Of a stretch of DNA of 64,000 nt, positions 49,387-57,375 are shown in pieces. Made by a program: the position numbers and the translations under genes. The stretch spans positions 1-64,000 of the forward strand of contig JAJZVN010000007.1 of assembly GCA_021845685.1 (NCBI GenBank), written 5' to 3'. Under the pieces are notes generated by a model. It saw nothing but the letters and a program-made list of their open reading frames with translations. It was not told the DNA's origin and did not search any database. How positions within the stretch are numbered: the first letter of the stretch is position 1; every line of letters starts with the position of its first letter. This DNA comes from a bacterium. Its GTDB lineage: Bacteria; SZUA-79; Acidulodesulfobacterales; Acidulodesulfobacteraceae.

Positions 49387-50886
49387 TTGGATAAAAAAAG
49401 TCCTTTCCCTGCTAATTATTTTGTTTCTCATCCAAACTGGAAATGGTTTATTCTTACAACGGTTTTGATAGGCGCGACTATGTCGGCACTTGACGTAAGC
49501 ATAGTAAATGTCGCTATGCCGACTATGAAAAATAGTTTTGCCGTTTCGATGGCTGTAATAGAATGGGTTGCTATGGCTTATATGCTTACGCTTACCATAT
49601 TTCTGCCTCTTTTCGGCAGACTCGCCGATATGTTCGGCAGGACTAAAATGTATAATATTGGCTTCATAGTATTTACTGTAGGTTCTGCTCTTTGCGGCTT
49701 TGCTCCTGATGCAAATTTTATTATATTTTCCCGTGTGATTCAGGCTGTCGGGGCTGGAATGCTGCAAGCAAACTCTGTCGCAATCATAACTCAGGCATTT
49801 CCTTCAAATGAATTGGGAAGGGCAATAGGTCTTCAAGGCGCCGTGCAGGCCATCGCAATGTCAATAGGACCTTTCATAGGCGGTATGATAATAAGCGCAA
49901 TAGGCTGGAGATTTATATTTTACGTTAATGTTCCCATCGGAATAATCGGAACCATTGCCGCTATGTATATTTTACCTGCAAGCAAGAAAAACGAGAAAAG
50001 GGAAAAAATAGATTTCTTCGGAATTTCTGTTTTTGCCGCAGGTTTAGCATTATTGGTTCTAGCAGTTAACCAGGGAAGCACATTTGGCTGGTCATCACCC
50101 TTAATAATCGGATTTTTTATTGCAGCTGCTATTTTACTGCCACTTTTTGTGTATATAGAGTTAAAAGTGGAACATCCAATGATTGATTTAACACTATTTA
50201 AAAAATGGGCTTTTTCTGCAGGAAATATAACAGGAATGATGTCGTATTACGTTCTATTTGCAGTCCTTTTTCTAATGCCATTTTATTTTGAGGATGTTTT
50301 AAAATATAATGCGGCAGCGACAGGTATCATGCTAACGCCTATCCCTCTTTCAATGGCTATTATAGCCCCATTTGCAGGGGCAATTTCCGATAGGATAGGT
50401 TCAAGAATAATGACATCTCTTGGAATGTTTGTATGTACAATTGCAACACTCAGTTTTATTTTTATCGGAACAAGTGCAAATATTATTTTACTGCTAATAG
50501 AGTTTATAGTATTAGGAATTGGCATGGGGCTCTTCACGCCGCCGAACAACAGCAGCATAATGCATTCTGCGCCTCCTGAAAGACTTGGTGTCGCTGGCGG
50601 AATACTGAATATGATGCGCGCTTTAGGATTAATATTCGGCGTTGCAATTTCAGGCCTTTTGTTTACTTCTTTACAGCATCAATATTTAACAAGTTATATG
50701 GTTTCTCATCATATACATATATCTGAAGTTTCTAAACTAATAAAAAATAACGCATTTGTTCATGGTATAGCATTTGTTATGTTTACTTTAGTCGTAATTA
50801 ATTTAACAGCGACAATATTATCGGCTGCCAAGAAAGACATAAAAGGCGGTAAGATTGAAGGGGCTGAGCCCATAGACCTTATGTAA
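49387..50886 (+). CDS. DHA2-family MFS drug exporter (EmrB/QacA type)
   Basis: This 499-residue proton-coupled exporter has fourteen predicted helices. Helix 1 carries the DHA2 signature MSALDVSIVNVAMPTM. Motif A is PLFGRLADMFGRTKMYNIG, and the antiporter motif C region reads GLQGAVQAIAMSIGPFIGGMI. The start codon is TTG with an aggagg ribosome binding site 9 bases before it. No EmrA-type adaptor gene is adjacent, so it probably works alone in the inner membrane. The substrate is unknown. Confidence 0.9.
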   Translation: MDKKSPFPANYFVSHPNWKWFILTTVLIGATMSALDVSIVNVAMPTMKNSFAVSMAVIEWVAMAYMLTLTIFLPLFGRLADMFGRTKMYNIGFIVFTVGSALCGFAPDANFIIFSRVIQAVGAGMLQANSVAIITQAFPSNELGRAIGLQGAVQAIAMSIGPFIGGMIISAIGWRFIFYVNVPIGIIGTIAAMYILPASKKNEKREKIDFFGISVFAAGLALLVLAVNQGSTFGWSSPLIIGFFIAAAILLPLFVYIELKVEHPMIDLTLFKKWAFSAGNITGMMSYYVLFAVLFLMPFYFEDVLKYNAAATGIMLTPIPLSMAIIAPFAGAISDRIGSRIMTSLGMFVCTIATLSFIFIGTSANIILLLIEFIVLGIGMGLFTPPNNSSIMHSAPPERLGVAGGILNMMRALGLIFGVAISGLLFTSLQHQYLTSYMVSHHIHISEVSKLIKNNAFVHGIAFVMFTLVVINLTATILSAAKKDIKGGKIEGAEPIDLM

Positions 50887-50972: not shown

Positions 50973-52799
50973 ATGCGATTATTTAATAAAAATAATAAAG
51001 GCGCTCTTTTAAATAAATTTAACAAAGAAATAATATCCGGCATTGAAATAATTTTTAAAAGAGCTCAAAGCAACGGCGTAAACAATCTCTTTTTAGATGA
51101 AAATATTAATCATTTATTACCTGAGATATTAGATTTATCTTCGGTAAAAAAATATTTAAATATTAATTCGCTGTGGTTTAGTGTGTATGGTTTAAGTATA
51201 ACTAGACAAAGAAGCTTTGTTATTTGCAATGCCGATTCTTTTTTTAGTTTTTCTCAACTAGAAGAACTTTTTTTAAAATCAAATCAATTTTATGGCGGTA
51301 TTGTAATATTTATTCTTAACAGAGATAATTTTAATAATTTTTCTTCTGAAACCGAAAAAAAATTTCCGATTTTTAATTATTCAAAATTAGACGAATTTAT
51401 TGATTTAATCCCTTCTAAATTTCAATTATCGGAAAAATTAAAACTCCCTGTCATAGCATATCTTAATAACTCAATATTATTAGAATATAAAGTATATGAA
51501 AGCAATCAATTTGCCGAAAGGACTGAAGCTAAAACAGTTTTAAAAGCAACCGGCAATTTAGAATCCGGCAAAAATCAATTTATTTTACCTGAAAATTATG
51601 AAGGTTTTAAAAATTTTGATAATTCTATTGAATTTATTTCAAATGATAATTCGGATAATTTAATTTTATGCGATTCCAAAGCTTTTCCTGAGATAATTGA
51701 AAAATTCAGCAATTATAATATAATTTATTTTAAACTATTAAATCCCGTTGACATAGAAAAACTTAAAAGTATATTTGATAAAATTCCTGAAAAACGATTT
51801 GAAAATATTTTAATTTACGATAGTTATCAACTATTATCAAAGCAACTATATCTATTTTTTAAAAATAATAGCAAAATTAAATTTAATAAATTAAATTTAA
51901 TAAATAGTATTTATAATAGTAACTGCAATAGTAACTGCGGGAATAGCAATAACTACGGGGGGGATAACAGCAACGATTATTTTTATTTAGAAAATTTTAT
52001 TCCAGCGGCAATGCCTTCATATCCTTCTTTTTGCATAGGATGCAATCTTTTTGCTTTTTTGCAAAAGATGAATAAAATAAACAATAAAAATATTGTTCTG
52101 ATAGGAGATAATAATTGCTTTTCACTTATATCTTCAAGCCCTTTAAAATTTTCGTTTCCTGATTTATTTTTAATAAAAGAACCGATTTATTTTATTTCAA
52201 ATTTAGATATTAAAAATTTAAATAAACAAATTTATGTTTTTATATCTTATTCTAATTTATTAAATAACATTGACTTAATTGCAAATAAAATAAATAACCT
52301 TACTTCTAAAGAAAAAATTTATTTTGTTATATACAATTCAATTTATGATTATTGCAATGATTCTCTAAAAATTAATAATAATGATTATAATTTGCCTCAA
52401 ATAAAAAATATTAAGTCTGAAATATTAAAAAATAATTTAACTTTGCATGATTTTAAAGATCAATACAAAACTAATCTTATTTTTATTGAAGATAATTGCT
52501 TGAAAAAAACTAAAGGGATTAAAAATTATAACTTTTATAAATATTTAAAAATTAATAACGATATTTGTTTAAAATTTGAATGTAAATTATGCTTTCAGAC
52601 CACTGGCTGTCCTGCCATTAAAATAGAAGAAAAAAATAATCTCGTTATTGATCCCGTTATATGCACAAATTGTCAGTTATGTATTGAAATTTGCACTTAT
52701 AAGGCTATAAAAATGTATAAAAAGAAAAAAATAAAAATTAAGGAAAGTATAGAAAATAAAATTAACTTAAAAAAAGGAAAAAAAAATAAAATTACTTAA
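50973..52799 (+). CDS. Degenerate IorA-like protein (indolepyruvate:ferredoxin oxidoreductase alpha family)
   Basis: This 608-residue protein follows the domain order of IorA but has lost its catalytic motifs. The N-terminal domain aligns by pattern with the IorA pyrimidine-binding domain up to YGGIVIFILNRDN, but the 'NEKVA' glutamate site reads INSLWFS. The middle has PSYPSFCIGCNLFAFLQKM, matching IorA 'PGCPHR', and then GDNNCFSLISS in place of 'GDIGCYTL'. The 'GDStF.H.G' thiamine-diphosphate motif is gone. The C-terminus (about 536-585) keeps seven cysteines in CKLCFQTTGCPAIK and CTNCQLCIEICTYKAI for two 4Fe-4S clusters. An Asn/Ser/Gly tract lies at about 308-336. A 110-base gap leads to the IorB-like gene. 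It may be a non-catalytic electron carrier; it could also be a decaying gene. Confidence 0.65.
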   Translation: MRLFNKNNKGALLNKFNKEIISGIEIIFKRAQSNGVNNLFLDENINHLLPEILDLSSVKKYLNINSLWFSVYGLSITRQRSFVICNADSFFSFSQLEELFLKSNQFYGGIVIFILNRDNFNNFSSETEKKFPIFNYSKLDEFIDLIPSKFQLSEKLKLPVIAYLNNSILLEYKVYESNQFAERTEAKTVLKATGNLESGKNQFILPENYEGFKNFDNSIEFISNDNSDNLILCDSKAFPEIIEKFSNYNIIYFKLLNPVDIEKLKSIFDKIPEKRFENILIYDSYQLLSKQLYLFFKNNSKIKFNKLNLINSIYNSNCNSNCGNSNNYGGDNSNDYFYLENFIPAAMPSYPSFCIGCNLFAFLQKMNKINNKNIVLIGDNNCFSLISSSPLKFSFPDLFLIKEPIYFISNLDIKNLNKQIYVFISYSNLLNNIDLIANKINNLTSKEKIYFVIYNSIYDYCNDSLKINNNDYNLPQIKNIKSEILKNNLTLHDFKDQYKTNLIFIEDNCLKKTKGIKNYNFYKYLKINNDICLKFECKLCFQTTGCPAIKIEEKNNLVIDPVICTNCQLCIEICTYKAIKMYKKKKIKIKESIENKINLKKGKKNKIT

Positions 52800-52909
52800 A
52801 TTCATAATTAATTATAAGTTGTATAATAAATTGTAAATCAATAAAATTAACTTAAAAGAAAAAATAAAAATTATTTAAATATTTAATTATTAACTGGGAA
52901 ATATTTTGA

Positions 52910-53500
52910 ATGGAAAATATAAATTTCAATTTTATCGTTAACGGCACTGATTTTCAAGAAATAAAATTTTTAAGCCAAATATTATATTTATCATTGTTAA
53001 ATGAAAATTATACTGCCTCTATTTCGATTAAATCATTATCAAATATTTCTAATTACAATCTTTCTTTCAGTTTAATAAAAATAGGCAAAATTGATTCGGT
53101 TGCATGCGTGAAACATATAAATGCTTTAGTTAGTTTAGATTACCAGTCCGTAATGAATTATTTAGAATTTTTTGATAATAGCACAATAGTTTTGGTTAAT
53201 TATTCTAAATTTAATATATGCAATTATTTTCTTGCCGATAATGATAGCGTTGACAGCAATATCAAGCAAAAAACAGATAATTTGCTTAAAATTCCTGTAG
53301 AAAAAATAGTAAATATAGATTTAATGGGCAAAAATAAAGTCAGTCCGAACATTTCTTTACTGGGGGCATTGTCTGCTAAATCAGGGGTAATTGATTTGGA
53401 TAATATTACATCTGTTTTAGCTTCTATATCTAAAAATGATACCGAAAAAAAGAATTACATAAACGCGTTGATTGCAGGTTATGATTTTGTTAATTCTTAA
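52910..53500 (+). CDS. Degenerate IorB-like protein (2-oxoacid:ferredoxin oxidoreductase gamma-domain family)
   Basis: This 196-residue protein has the secondary-structure and motif order of IorB. The start is FIVNGTDFQEIKFLSQILYL, in place of 'GvGGQGi..a..iLa', so the glycine-rich motif is lost. SFSLIKIGKIDSVACVKHINALVSLDYQSVMNYLEFF corresponds to the 'vRiG......aD.l...ep.ea.r.l' stretch. KIPVEKIVNIDLMGKNKVSPNISLLGALSAKSGVI matches the family's 'N...lGa.a......' end. Together with the upstream IorA-like gene it forms an alpha/beta pair in which both partners are degenerate in the same way. The family B element begins at its stop codon. Confidence 0.6.
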   Translation: MENINFNFIVNGTDFQEIKFLSQILYLSLLNENYTASISIKSLSNISNYNLSFSLIKIGKIDSVACVKHINALVSLDYQSVMNYLEFFDNSTIVLVNYSKFNICNYFLADNDSVDSNIKQKTDNLLKIPVEKIVNIDLMGKNKVSPNISLLGALSAKSGVIDLDNITSVLASISKNDTEKKNYINALIAGYDFVNS

Positions 53501-54366: not shown

Positions 54367-57300
54367 TTAAACAAAATATTTATTATTTTTATTTAGACTA
54401 TCGTAAAAAGCTTCTAATCTAGTAACATATCCTGCATCCGCATTATGTTCGTCTATTTCAATTTCTAAATAAGGTTTGTTTTTCATATAGTCGGCAAAAA
54501 AAGTTTTAATAAATGAATCCGGTCCGCAGCTATAGCTTGTTAAATATACGGCATTCAATTTAGGATTGTCTTTTATTATTTTTGCTGCCGACAATATTTT
54601 ATGTCCTGCATGCCAGAACATATTGTCGTGTTCAGAAAATATCGACACTTCATTGTAATCAAGAAAATCCATAGGCATAACCGTCATACCTAATGATGAA
54701 ATTTTATTAGGAATTGCAAGATTAATTCCATCGTCTCCCATATTATACGGTCTGCCTACAAGAACAGTTATATCATCATATTTTTCAAGAATTTCCTTGC
54801 CTTTATTTTTAAGTTTATTAAAAAAATCTATTTGTTTATCTAATGCATTATCAAATGCATTAATAATTTTTTTTCTTGAAATTTTAAATTTTCTTAAATA
54901 ATGAGTCAAGCTATCTATAGTTATATCTATATCTTTTTTATTATTATTTAATCTAAATTCAGGCGTAATAAGATAAGTATCGCCAAAATCAATAAGCGAT
55001 TTAGTCGAAAAAGGAACTCCCTGAATATACGGACACTGCGACGTGTTTGTCTGAAGTTCGTGATTTTTTTCTCTATTTATTAATGCAGGCAAAAATACGG
55101 CATCCACTTTCTTATCAATAAGATTCTTGGAATGGCCTAAAAGTACTTTTACGGGAAGACATGTATCCGTTATAGATTGCATATTTGAAATACCGATAAT
55201 AGATTTATTTGTTTCATCGGATAGTATTACCGTAAAACCAAGCTCTGTAAACAAGCTGTTATATAGCGGGAACAAATCATAAGTTTCTAAACATAAAGGT
55301 ATTCCTATGCGCGGTTTTGATAAATCATTTTCATTTTTTTGCGCATCATAATTTTCAAATAATAGACTTTTTCTATAAATAAAGAAATTTTCGCCTTTTT
55401 TAATTTTACTTTTATTATCAATTTCAAAAATATCGCATCTTGCGCCATAATAATGAGGGGGCTCTTGTTCTACAGAAACTTTATTGACTTCGCACAAATT
55501 CGAACATTTTTTGCATTCAAAAGATTCCTGCCCATATTTACGGTTTCTTAAATCAAATCCGACAAATTTTGATTCGTCTTTAGTTTGAAAGGCTAATAAT
55601 GCGCTTCCTATCGCACCCGTTACTTCATTATGGTCAGGCACCGTAATTTTCTTATTCAGCAGAGTTTCAAAAGCGCTGACTACCGCCTTATTTAACGCAA
55701 CCCCTCCTTGAAACAGTATATGCTCTCCTATAGGTTTTCCAAGAACAACTTTATTTAAATAATTTTCCACGATAGAATAGCTTAAACCTGCCAAAAGCTG
55801 ATCTTTAGAAGCTCCTTTCTGTTGATGAGAAACGAGATCTGATTCCATAAAAACAGTACATCTTTCTCCAAGACTGCAGGGGTTATCCGCTCTAAACGCC
55901 GACTCCGAAAATTCTTTTATTATATCCACATTTAATTTATCGGCTTGCTCTTCAAGAAAAGAGCCCGTTCCTGCAGCGCATGCTTTATTCATTTCAAAAT
56001 CCACGACGACGCCGTTATTAATTCTTATATATTTAGAATCTTGCCCGCCTATTTCAAAGACGGTATCAACTGTATTATCTATAAATACCGAAGCTTCAGC
56101 CTGAGCCGTTATTTCATTTTTGACGATATCCGCTCCGATAAAATCGGCAATCAAATATCTTCCTGAACCGGTGGTGCATGCTCCTTTGACTTCAGTCCTT
56201 ATATTATAAGCCGTCAGGTCGCCGTAAATTTCATATAAGGTTTCCGTTACAACTTTGATCGGCTCGCCGTTGGTTTTTTTATATTTTTTAATTACAAGCT
56301 CTTTATTGTCATCTAATAACACTATATTAGTAGAAACGGAACCTGTATCTACTCCGATATAAACCGGAACCGTCAGTCCTGAATATTTTATTAAATTTTT
56401 ATCCCGAACAAAGTCAAAATCGGCTGTTTTGCTTACTGCTGGCTTATTAAGATTAGGATGATATTTTCCGGTTAATCTGCTTTCACCGAGAAATTTTTCT
56501 AAGTTTTCTAATCCATTAAATTTAAAACTATTAATTTCGTTTTTTGCAATTTCATTTTTTGATATTAAGGCAATCCCGATTGCGGCCATTACAGTGTGAT
56601 GCTTCGGTATTACCAATTCTCCGTTCTTTAAACCTAATACATCTTCAAACGCCCTTATCATACCTTTATTGTAAGCAACTCCTCCTTGAAAAATCACGGG
56701 TTTTTTTATTTTTTTCCCCTTTGCCACAACGCCCATAAAATTTCTTGCGACAGCATAACACAAACCTGCAACTATATCCTGAATAGGGGTAGAAATTTGC
56801 TGCAGATGAATCATATCGGATTTTGCAAACACGGTACATCTGCCTGCAATTTTTGCAGGATTTTCAGATAAAACCGCTAATCTTCCAAAATCTTTCTCTA
56901 TATCAATATTAAGTCTATCTGCCTGCTGATCTAAAAAAGAACCCGTACCTGCGGCGCATAAATCGTTTAATCCAAAATCGTCTAAGTATATATCGCCTGT
57001 TTTTTCATTTTTATTTAACAATATAAATTTTGAATCCTGCCCCCCCATTTCAATAACTGTTTTTACTTCGGGATAAAAATATTTAACAGCTTCTGTTTGA
57101 GCGACAAGTTCATTAATATTGGGTATGTTTAATATATCGCCGAGGGTCCTTGATCCTGAACCTGTAACCCCGATTGAATAAAAATTTTCAACTGGAAATT
57201 CACTAAAAGTGTTTTTTAATACATTATATGCAGTTTTAAGCGATTCCCCATTTGATCTCGTATATGTTTTAGATACAACATTTAGCTTTTCGTCTAATAT

Positions 57301-57375
57301 TGCAGTTTTAACAGTGGTTGAGCCTATATCTATGCCTAAAAAAAGTTTATCCATTATCATCAAATCCTTTTCCAT
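54367..57375 (-). CDS. Large 2-hydroxyacyl-CoA-dehydratase-activase-like protein (two BadF domains + DUF2229)
   Basis: This 1002-residue cytoplasmic protein contains two ASKHA ATPase domains in tandem. The first (about 10-275) has FLGIDIGSTTVKTAIL, GGQDSKFILL and LCAAGTGSFLDQQADRL. The second (about 335-590) has IGVDTGSVSTNIVLL, GGQDSKYIRI and KACAAGTGSFLEEQADKL. The Cys of each CAAGTG would bind a shared 4Fe-4S cluster. A DUF2229-type region follows, with CKKCSNLCEV and RIGIPLCLETYDLFPLYNSL. Family members of about 1400 residues carry a further domain that is missing here. Its start overlaps moaE by 16 bases; an alternative ATG lies 8 codons in. The substrate reductase or dehydratase is not in the window. 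Confidence 0.85.
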   Translation of the reverse strand: MEKDLMIMDKLFLGIDIGSTTVKTAILDEKLNVVSKTYTRSNGESLKTAYNVLKNTFSEFPVENFYSIGVTGSGSRTLGDILNIPNINELVAQTEAVKYFYPEVKTVIEMGGQDSKFILLNKNEKTGDIYLDDFGLNDLCAAGTGSFLDQQADRLNIDIEKDFGRLAVLSENPAKIAGRCTVFAKSDMIHLQQISTPIQDIVAGLCYAVARNFMGVVAKGKKIKKPVIFQGGVAYNKGMIRAFEDVLGLKNGELVIPKHHTVMAAIGIALISKNEIAKNEINSFKFNGLENLEKFLGESRLTGKYHPNLNKPAVSKTADFDFVRDKNLIKYSGLTVPVYIGVDTGSVSTNIVLLDDNKELVIKKYKKTNGEPIKVVTETLYEIYGDLTAYNIRTEVKGACTTGSGRYLIADFIGADIVKNEITAQAEASVFIDNTVDTVFEIGGQDSKYIRINNGVVVDFEMNKACAAGTGSFLEEQADKLNVDIIKEFSESAFRADNPCSLGERCTVFMESDLVSHQQKGASKDQLLAGLSYSIVENYLNKVVLGKPIGEHILFQGGVALNKAVVSAFETLLNKKITVPDHNEVTGAIGSALLAFQTKDESKFVGFDLRNRKYGQESFECKKCSNLCEVNKVSVEQEPPHYYGARCDIFEIDNKSKIKKGENFFIYRKSLLFENYDAQKNENDLSKPRIGIPLCLETYDLFPLYNSLFTELGFTVILSDETNKSIIGISNMQSITDTCLPVKVLLGHSKNLIDKKVDAVFLPALINREKNHELQTNTSQCPYIQGVPFSTKSLIDFGDTYLITPEFRLNNNKKDIDITIDSLTHYLRKFKISRKKIINAFDNALDKQIDFFNKLKNKGKEILEKYDDITVLVGRPYNMGDDGINLAIPNKISSLGMTVMPMDFLDYNEVSIFSEHDNMFWHAGHKILSAAKIIKDNPKLNAVYLTSYSCGPDSFIKTFFADYMKNKPYLEIEIDEHNADAGYVTRLEAFYDSLNKNNKYFV

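Follow-up and report, generated by a model that had tools for sequence, protein, structure and literature searches.

The 2-oxoacid:ferredoxin oxidoreductases (OFORs) are ancient, central redox enzymes. We know of no described OFOR that lacks the thiamine site while carrying a complete cluster wire, and our search of the full-text literature for thiamine-free OFOR paralogues or pseudoenzymes found none, which is limited evidence. As for the clusters themselves, the catalytic one has been assigned to conserved cysteines of the beta-type subunit, and two clusters to the delta-type subunit, with its eight cysteines (PMC13285125).

In this work, we focus on a pair of adjacent genes, here called alpha and beta, that resemble the indolepyruvate:ferredoxin oxidoreductase, IorA/IorB, of this family. 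They lie in a stretch of 64,000 nucleotides, the whole of which we call the window, from a draft genome of 3.04 Mb whose host probably belongs to the acid mine drainage group SZUA-79 / Acidulodesulfobacterales. An earlier note, made from the letters of this stretch, had described the pair as an IorA/IorB-like module that had lost its catalytic motifs while remaining fully open, and had proposed that it might be repurposed for electron transfer or as a scaffold.

The genes and their family

The two genes are the following.

50973..52799, + strand: alpha chain, an IorA paralogue without a thiamine-diphosphate site, 608 aa
52910..53500, + strand: beta chain, an IorB / OFOR-gamma paralogue without GxGGQG, 196 aa

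Both frames are indeed open over these spans. With a GC content of 21.9%, as in the alpha gene, the probability that a random frame remains open across 608 codons is about 2e-27, and the other frames there hold between 33 and 110 stops. The GC content of alpha may be set beside the 30% of the window, the 35% of AspS and the 39% of the MFS gene, and asparagine makes up 14% of the protein. No RNA families or tRNAs were found within the window.

The family identity of the pair was examined with profiles and with predicted structures, since comparing the sequences of alpha and beta with the PDB had given nothing useful. Against the NCBIfam model TIGR03336 (IOR_alpha), alpha scores 56.2 bits (E 2e-15) and fails the curated cut-off of 650.9 bits, a cut-off that the thiamine-intact IorA copies of the same phylum also miss slightly, with 586-643 bits. 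Beta passes the gathering score of the Pfam family PF01558 (POR), with 30.7 bits for a threshold of 27.4. When profiles are compared with hhalign, alpha aligns with canonical IorA over 514 columns (E 2.6e-11, probability 97.3), which is nearly its full length. The AlphaFold model of beta (pLDDT 87) has OFOR chains that hold the gamma fold as all of its top 37 Foldseek matches, with probability 1.0, and among solved structures no significant match besides OFOR gamma subunits. The model of alpha is moderate (pLDDT 65, pTM 0.39), too weak for domain packing or pocket geometry, and it matches thiamine-diphosphate enzymes, including OFORs, with a poor global superposition.

The structure comparison that had been suggested for both proteins thus gives the OFOR gamma fold for beta and a thiamine-enzyme fold for alpha. 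Together with the TIGR03336 and PF01558 matches and the 514-column alignment, it bears out the family identity first read from the sequence pattern, and the profile searches led to IorA/POR and not to some different family. The IorA-like domain order that had been recognised is likewise supported, both by the profile-profile alignment and by the search of the AlphaFold models against solved structures. Judged by its profile and fold matches, then, the pair is a divergent IorA/IorB paralogue, which by its defining catalytic features falls outside IorA, yet is clearly derived from the IorA family.

Distribution and selection

Thirty genomes of the phylum were examined, and a full-length alpha with beta behind it is present in 25 of them, with alpha identities to the window copy of 37-79%. 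For the search of genome contigs, a single-protein query matched nothing, and an alignment-seeded query did. The alpha profile was run on 386 genomes of the domain, the 30 of the phylum included; among the others, about 356 in number, no pair-type alpha was found, every match there being confined to the C-terminal ferredoxin region.

The pair is intact in all 25 phylum genomes in which the locus is assembled, and the inspection of close relatives for stops, which the earlier note had recommended along with a measurement of dN/dS, revealed no internal one. Pairwise comparisons within the genus, at dS values of 0.1-1.1, give alpha a dN/dS of 0.115-0.203 and beta one of 0.043-0.109. These values are similar to those of the neighbouring genes (GroEL 0.03, AspS 0.08, hydrolase 0.19) and lie far below 1 in every comparison, which excludes a pseudogene. 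The idea that the two genes are decaying pseudogenes could draw on the disappearance of the catalytic motifs and on the unusual A+T and Asn richness of alpha (GC 21.9%, N 14%), but it has to face reading frames open in 25 genomes, a dN/dS of about 0.2 at most and dozens of invariant residues. We therefore give it a negligible probability and consider it refuted by the dN/dS and the phylum-wide conservation.

Loss of the catalytic motifs

A canonical iorAB had been proposed as something to look for elsewhere in the genome, and two motif-intact sets were found, on contigs 9 and 43 (C9 and C43 in what follows). These canonical IorAB sets cover indolepyruvate-type oxidation, so that the copy forming the pair was freed. 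The places at which it departs from them are these.

51027..51449, + strand: degenerate POR_N-like (PYR) region of alpha, in which the NE[KH] catalytic Glu segment is lost
52245..52340, + strand: site of the canonical GDS(T)F...DN thiamine-diphosphate/Mg loop in alpha, with G, D and N replaced in 25/25
52940..52963, + strand: site of the canonical GxGGQG in beta, which reads NGTDFQEI here and NGADFKEI in relatives
53039..53053, + strand: invariant SNISN of beta, at the canonical SExHG position

The thiamine-diphosphate/Mg motif GDS-x(~26)-N is found in 32/32 canonical IorA and in none of the 25 alphas, and its residues G500, D501 and N529 (C43 IorA numbering) are kept by 0% of them. The NE[KH] catalytic glutamate, present in 15/16 full-length canonical IorA, occurs in 0/25 alphas, and no conserved acid replaces it in this region of the 25 proteins. 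The SSQNEQD-type loop has also been lost from all 25 alphas. On the side of beta, GxGGQG is kept by 0/25 and SExHG has turned into SNISN in all. The losses noted earlier in the window copy (the NEKVA-type glutamate and the GDStF-type motif in alpha, the GvGGQG motif in beta) are consequently those of all 25 relatives, and the alignment that might have revealed an intact ThDP site revealed none, G, D and N being replaced in 25/25. From this motif loss, we predict that the pair carries out no CoA-dependent 2-oxoacid oxidation.

A shifted thiamine motif was also considered. The loose pattern GD[GSAT]x20-34N is matched by 9/25 alphas, and this candidate was rejected, the matches either coinciding with the GDxxC cluster site or lying within a linker that is not conserved.

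Retention of the cluster ligands

The following features of alpha concern its cysteines and its C-terminal end.

52032..52043, + strand: C354 and C357 (CxGC), medial [4Fe-4S] ligand positions 1 and 2, aligned to the CPGC of OFOR beta
52116..52118, + strand: C382 (GDxxC), medial-cluster position 3
52497..52499, + strand: C509, medial-cluster position 4
52566..52694, + strand: dicluster ferredoxin region, with C532, C537, C540, C546, C564, C567, C570 and C574
52710..52796, + strand: conserved basic C-terminal tail, not in canonical IorA

Invariance was defined on a canonical reference set of 32 IorA sequences, which have 76 invariant positions. All 12 invariant cysteines of canonical IorA are present in 25/25 alphas, versus 10/64 of the other canonical invariants (kept in at least 90% of alphas), a difference with a Fisher p of 2e-8, and the 12 cysteines that are invariant in alpha occupy the same 12 positions as in canonical IorA. 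This is where the earlier note has to be amended: it had counted seven C-terminal cysteines, and the dicluster region has eight (8/8 invariant in 25 members); its total had also missed four invariant ones upstream, in the former thiamine-diphosphate domain, which makes 12 in all.

These four overlooked cysteines alter the interpretation of the pair. C354, C357, C382 and C509 align with the CPGC, IGC and NC of the KorB of the same genome, the cysteines of which align in turn with those of 5b46_B and 8ys5_C, two OFOR beta chains of known structure. In 5b46_B they correspond to positions 12, 15, 46 and 197, which we take to be the ligands of the cluster that adjoins thiamine in OFORs. Since all four are invariant, the entire wire appears to be under selection, beyond the ferredoxin tail.

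Taken together, we favour with a probability of roughly 60% a reading in which the pair is a phylum-specific IorA/IorB paralogue, thiamine-free and non-oxidising, that has been kept as a three-cluster electron-transfer protein. Alpha would hold one medial [4Fe-4S] cluster in what was the thiamine domain, together with two C-terminal clusters of ferredoxin type, and these three would form a wire connecting the former active site with the surface of the protein, beta being presumably a structural partner, as in IorAB. Electrons would enter or leave where a protein partner docks, which might be on the face of the emptied active site or on the new basic tail. The tail has 9-14 K/R versus 1-3 D/E in 25/25 alphas; most canonical IorAs stop at most ~16 residues past the last cysteine, and those of the C9 type have a longer tail of mixed charge. 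The repurposing into an electron-transfer module that had been proposed is thus favoured over a pseudogene by the dN/dS, the 25 intact orthologues, the motif loss and the 12 cysteines. We infer the electron-transfer function itself, and a cluster-less scaffold role is less likely. The kept cysteines could alternatively serve a sensor or a structural cluster. Tentatively, and at somewhat less than even odds, we would extend this to the view that an OFOR became, throughout the phylum, a dedicated three-cluster electron conduit or redox sensor whose former thiamine site receives a new partner or ligand, and that it represents the first clear 'pseudo-OFOR'.

The pair also has invariant residues of its own. 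In alpha, some of these family-specific invariants stand at lost canonical residues, for example S389, L391, F395, R80 and R183, and beta has SNISN, DxQS and GYD. Such residues of alpha and beta, placed where the canonical ones vanished, would be expected if the emptied thiamine pocket had come to bind a different cofactor or substrate, with the three clusters serving a new reaction. This new catalyst seems unlikely to us, however, as Pfam and NCBIfam scans show no recognisable cofactor motif besides Fe-S, and the former pocket region is largely poorly conserved.

Canonical relatives in the same genome

In the best tree, the alpha clade joins the C9-type IorA of the phylum with a support of 95/97, on very long branches (several changes per site) that leave a grouping with the C43 type unrejected (p-AU 0.14). 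This connection to a canonical IorA could suggest that the pair is a regulatory or structural pseudo-subunit, which would form mixed oligomers with one of the cell's two canonical IorAB enzymes and tune its activity. The same genome does contain two canonical IorA genes (C9 and C43), and many pseudoenzymes tune their active relatives in this way. Nevertheless, we find such a role improbable, to about the same degree as the new catalyst: in addition to the weakness of a tree drawn on such branches, the contig of the pair differs from those of both canonical sets, and a purely allosteric role needs no selective keeping of cluster ligands.

The genome also carries POR and KOR clusters. The C9 set forms part of a redox cluster (C9:15865-19335) made of MetV (DUF5981), a degenerate MetF-like protein, a thiamine-motif-intact IorA and IorB. 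The MetF-like protein has 257 aa, no Pfam match and a weak MTHFR match (3.9e-7), and the neighbours in this cluster recur in two relatives with 40-76% identity. A normal MetF adjoins the POR cluster on C108.

Genomic neighbourhood

The gene order is UppS, hydrolase, AspS, MFS permease, alpha, beta, Fur-family regulator, activase, MoaE, MoaB and GroEL, and it is conserved from UppS to GroEL in nearly all relatives. Two of these genes are given for context.

49480..50886, + strand: EmrB/DHA2-type MFS efflux permease, upstream of alpha
54367..57375, - strand: orphan acyl-CoA-dehydratase activase, 2x BcrAD_BadFG + DUF2229, a possible partner only

The neighbours are mostly housekeeping genes and, as the whole block is conserved, adjacency to the pair means little. 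The distance from the MFS gene to alpha is usually 14-33 bases in the relatives, and that from alpha to beta is 5-7 bases in most of them and about 100 in the genus of the window; these short gaps make it likely that MFS, alpha and beta form one transcript. In the SZUA-79 MAG, the pair is kept without the MFS permease, and a 275-aa ORF lies on the opposite strand between AspS and alpha.

The Fur-family regulator and activase genes are convergent to the pair. Activases of the BcrAD_BadFG class require a low-potential donor such as ferredoxin (PMC6739815). This one is about 1000 aa long across the phylum, whereas in most of the other phyla that were searched the length is about 1400 aa. The 30 phylum genomes yielded no HGD-D dehydratase above the cut-off, which makes the activase an orphan. 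Its requirement for low-potential electrons (PMC6739815), its orphan status and its position two genes from the pair in nearly every relative make it a weak candidate for a partner, and the pair might be its dedicated electron donor, feeding an ATP-driven, low-potential electron pumping. We hold this to be quite unlikely, slightly more so than the two readings above, because the convergent genes form no single operon, conservation extends over the whole block, AspS, UppS and GroEL among it, and DUF2229 activases occur in other phyla without the pair.

Nor does their joint absence help. Five phylum genomes (G002, G009, G014, G016 and G029) are devoid of the pair and of the activase as well. In the same five, GroEL gave no match (in a search run without a positive-control genome alongside), three have no full-length AspS, and in the remaining two the contig breaks off either just past AspS or where the MFS gene ends. 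With GroEL unmatched and AspS missing or at a contig edge, the co-absence most likely reflects an assembly gap within the block, so the phylogenetic-profile link between pair and activase was rejected and dropped as evidence. Two of these five genomes are 97-98% complete, one in 7 contigs.

Significance and comparison with known systems

If our preferred reading as a three-cluster electron-transfer protein is true, the electron-transfer half of an OFOR has been naturally separated from its catalytic half, and the pair offers a clean protein on which to test what the medial cluster does. It would also suggest that uncultured bacteria of acid mines have an undescribed route for low-potential electrons. 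The complex I of these bacteria has been reported without NuoEFG (PMC6776010).

Among the known systems, IorA/IorB (TIGR03336 / PF01558) is like the pair in the alpha-beta gene order, the domain order of alpha, the 12 cysteines and the fold of beta. The pair is unlike IorA in having no thiamine-diphosphate loop, catalytic Glu or SSQNEQD-type loop, and in its new basic C-tail, and it is unlike IorB in a beta without GxGGQG and without SExHG. PorABCD, KorAB and OorDABC share with it the medial ligands CxxC...C...C, the two ferredoxin clusters and a gamma-type fold, but they are active thiamine enzymes, the subunits of which are separate or differently fused. Finally, dicluster ferredoxins and PorD-type delta subunits have the 2x[4Fe-4S] carrier role that we propose for the pair; in contrast to them, the pair has its ferredoxin still fused to a full, apparently catalytically dead IorA body, and it has a partner subunit and the site of a third cluster besides.
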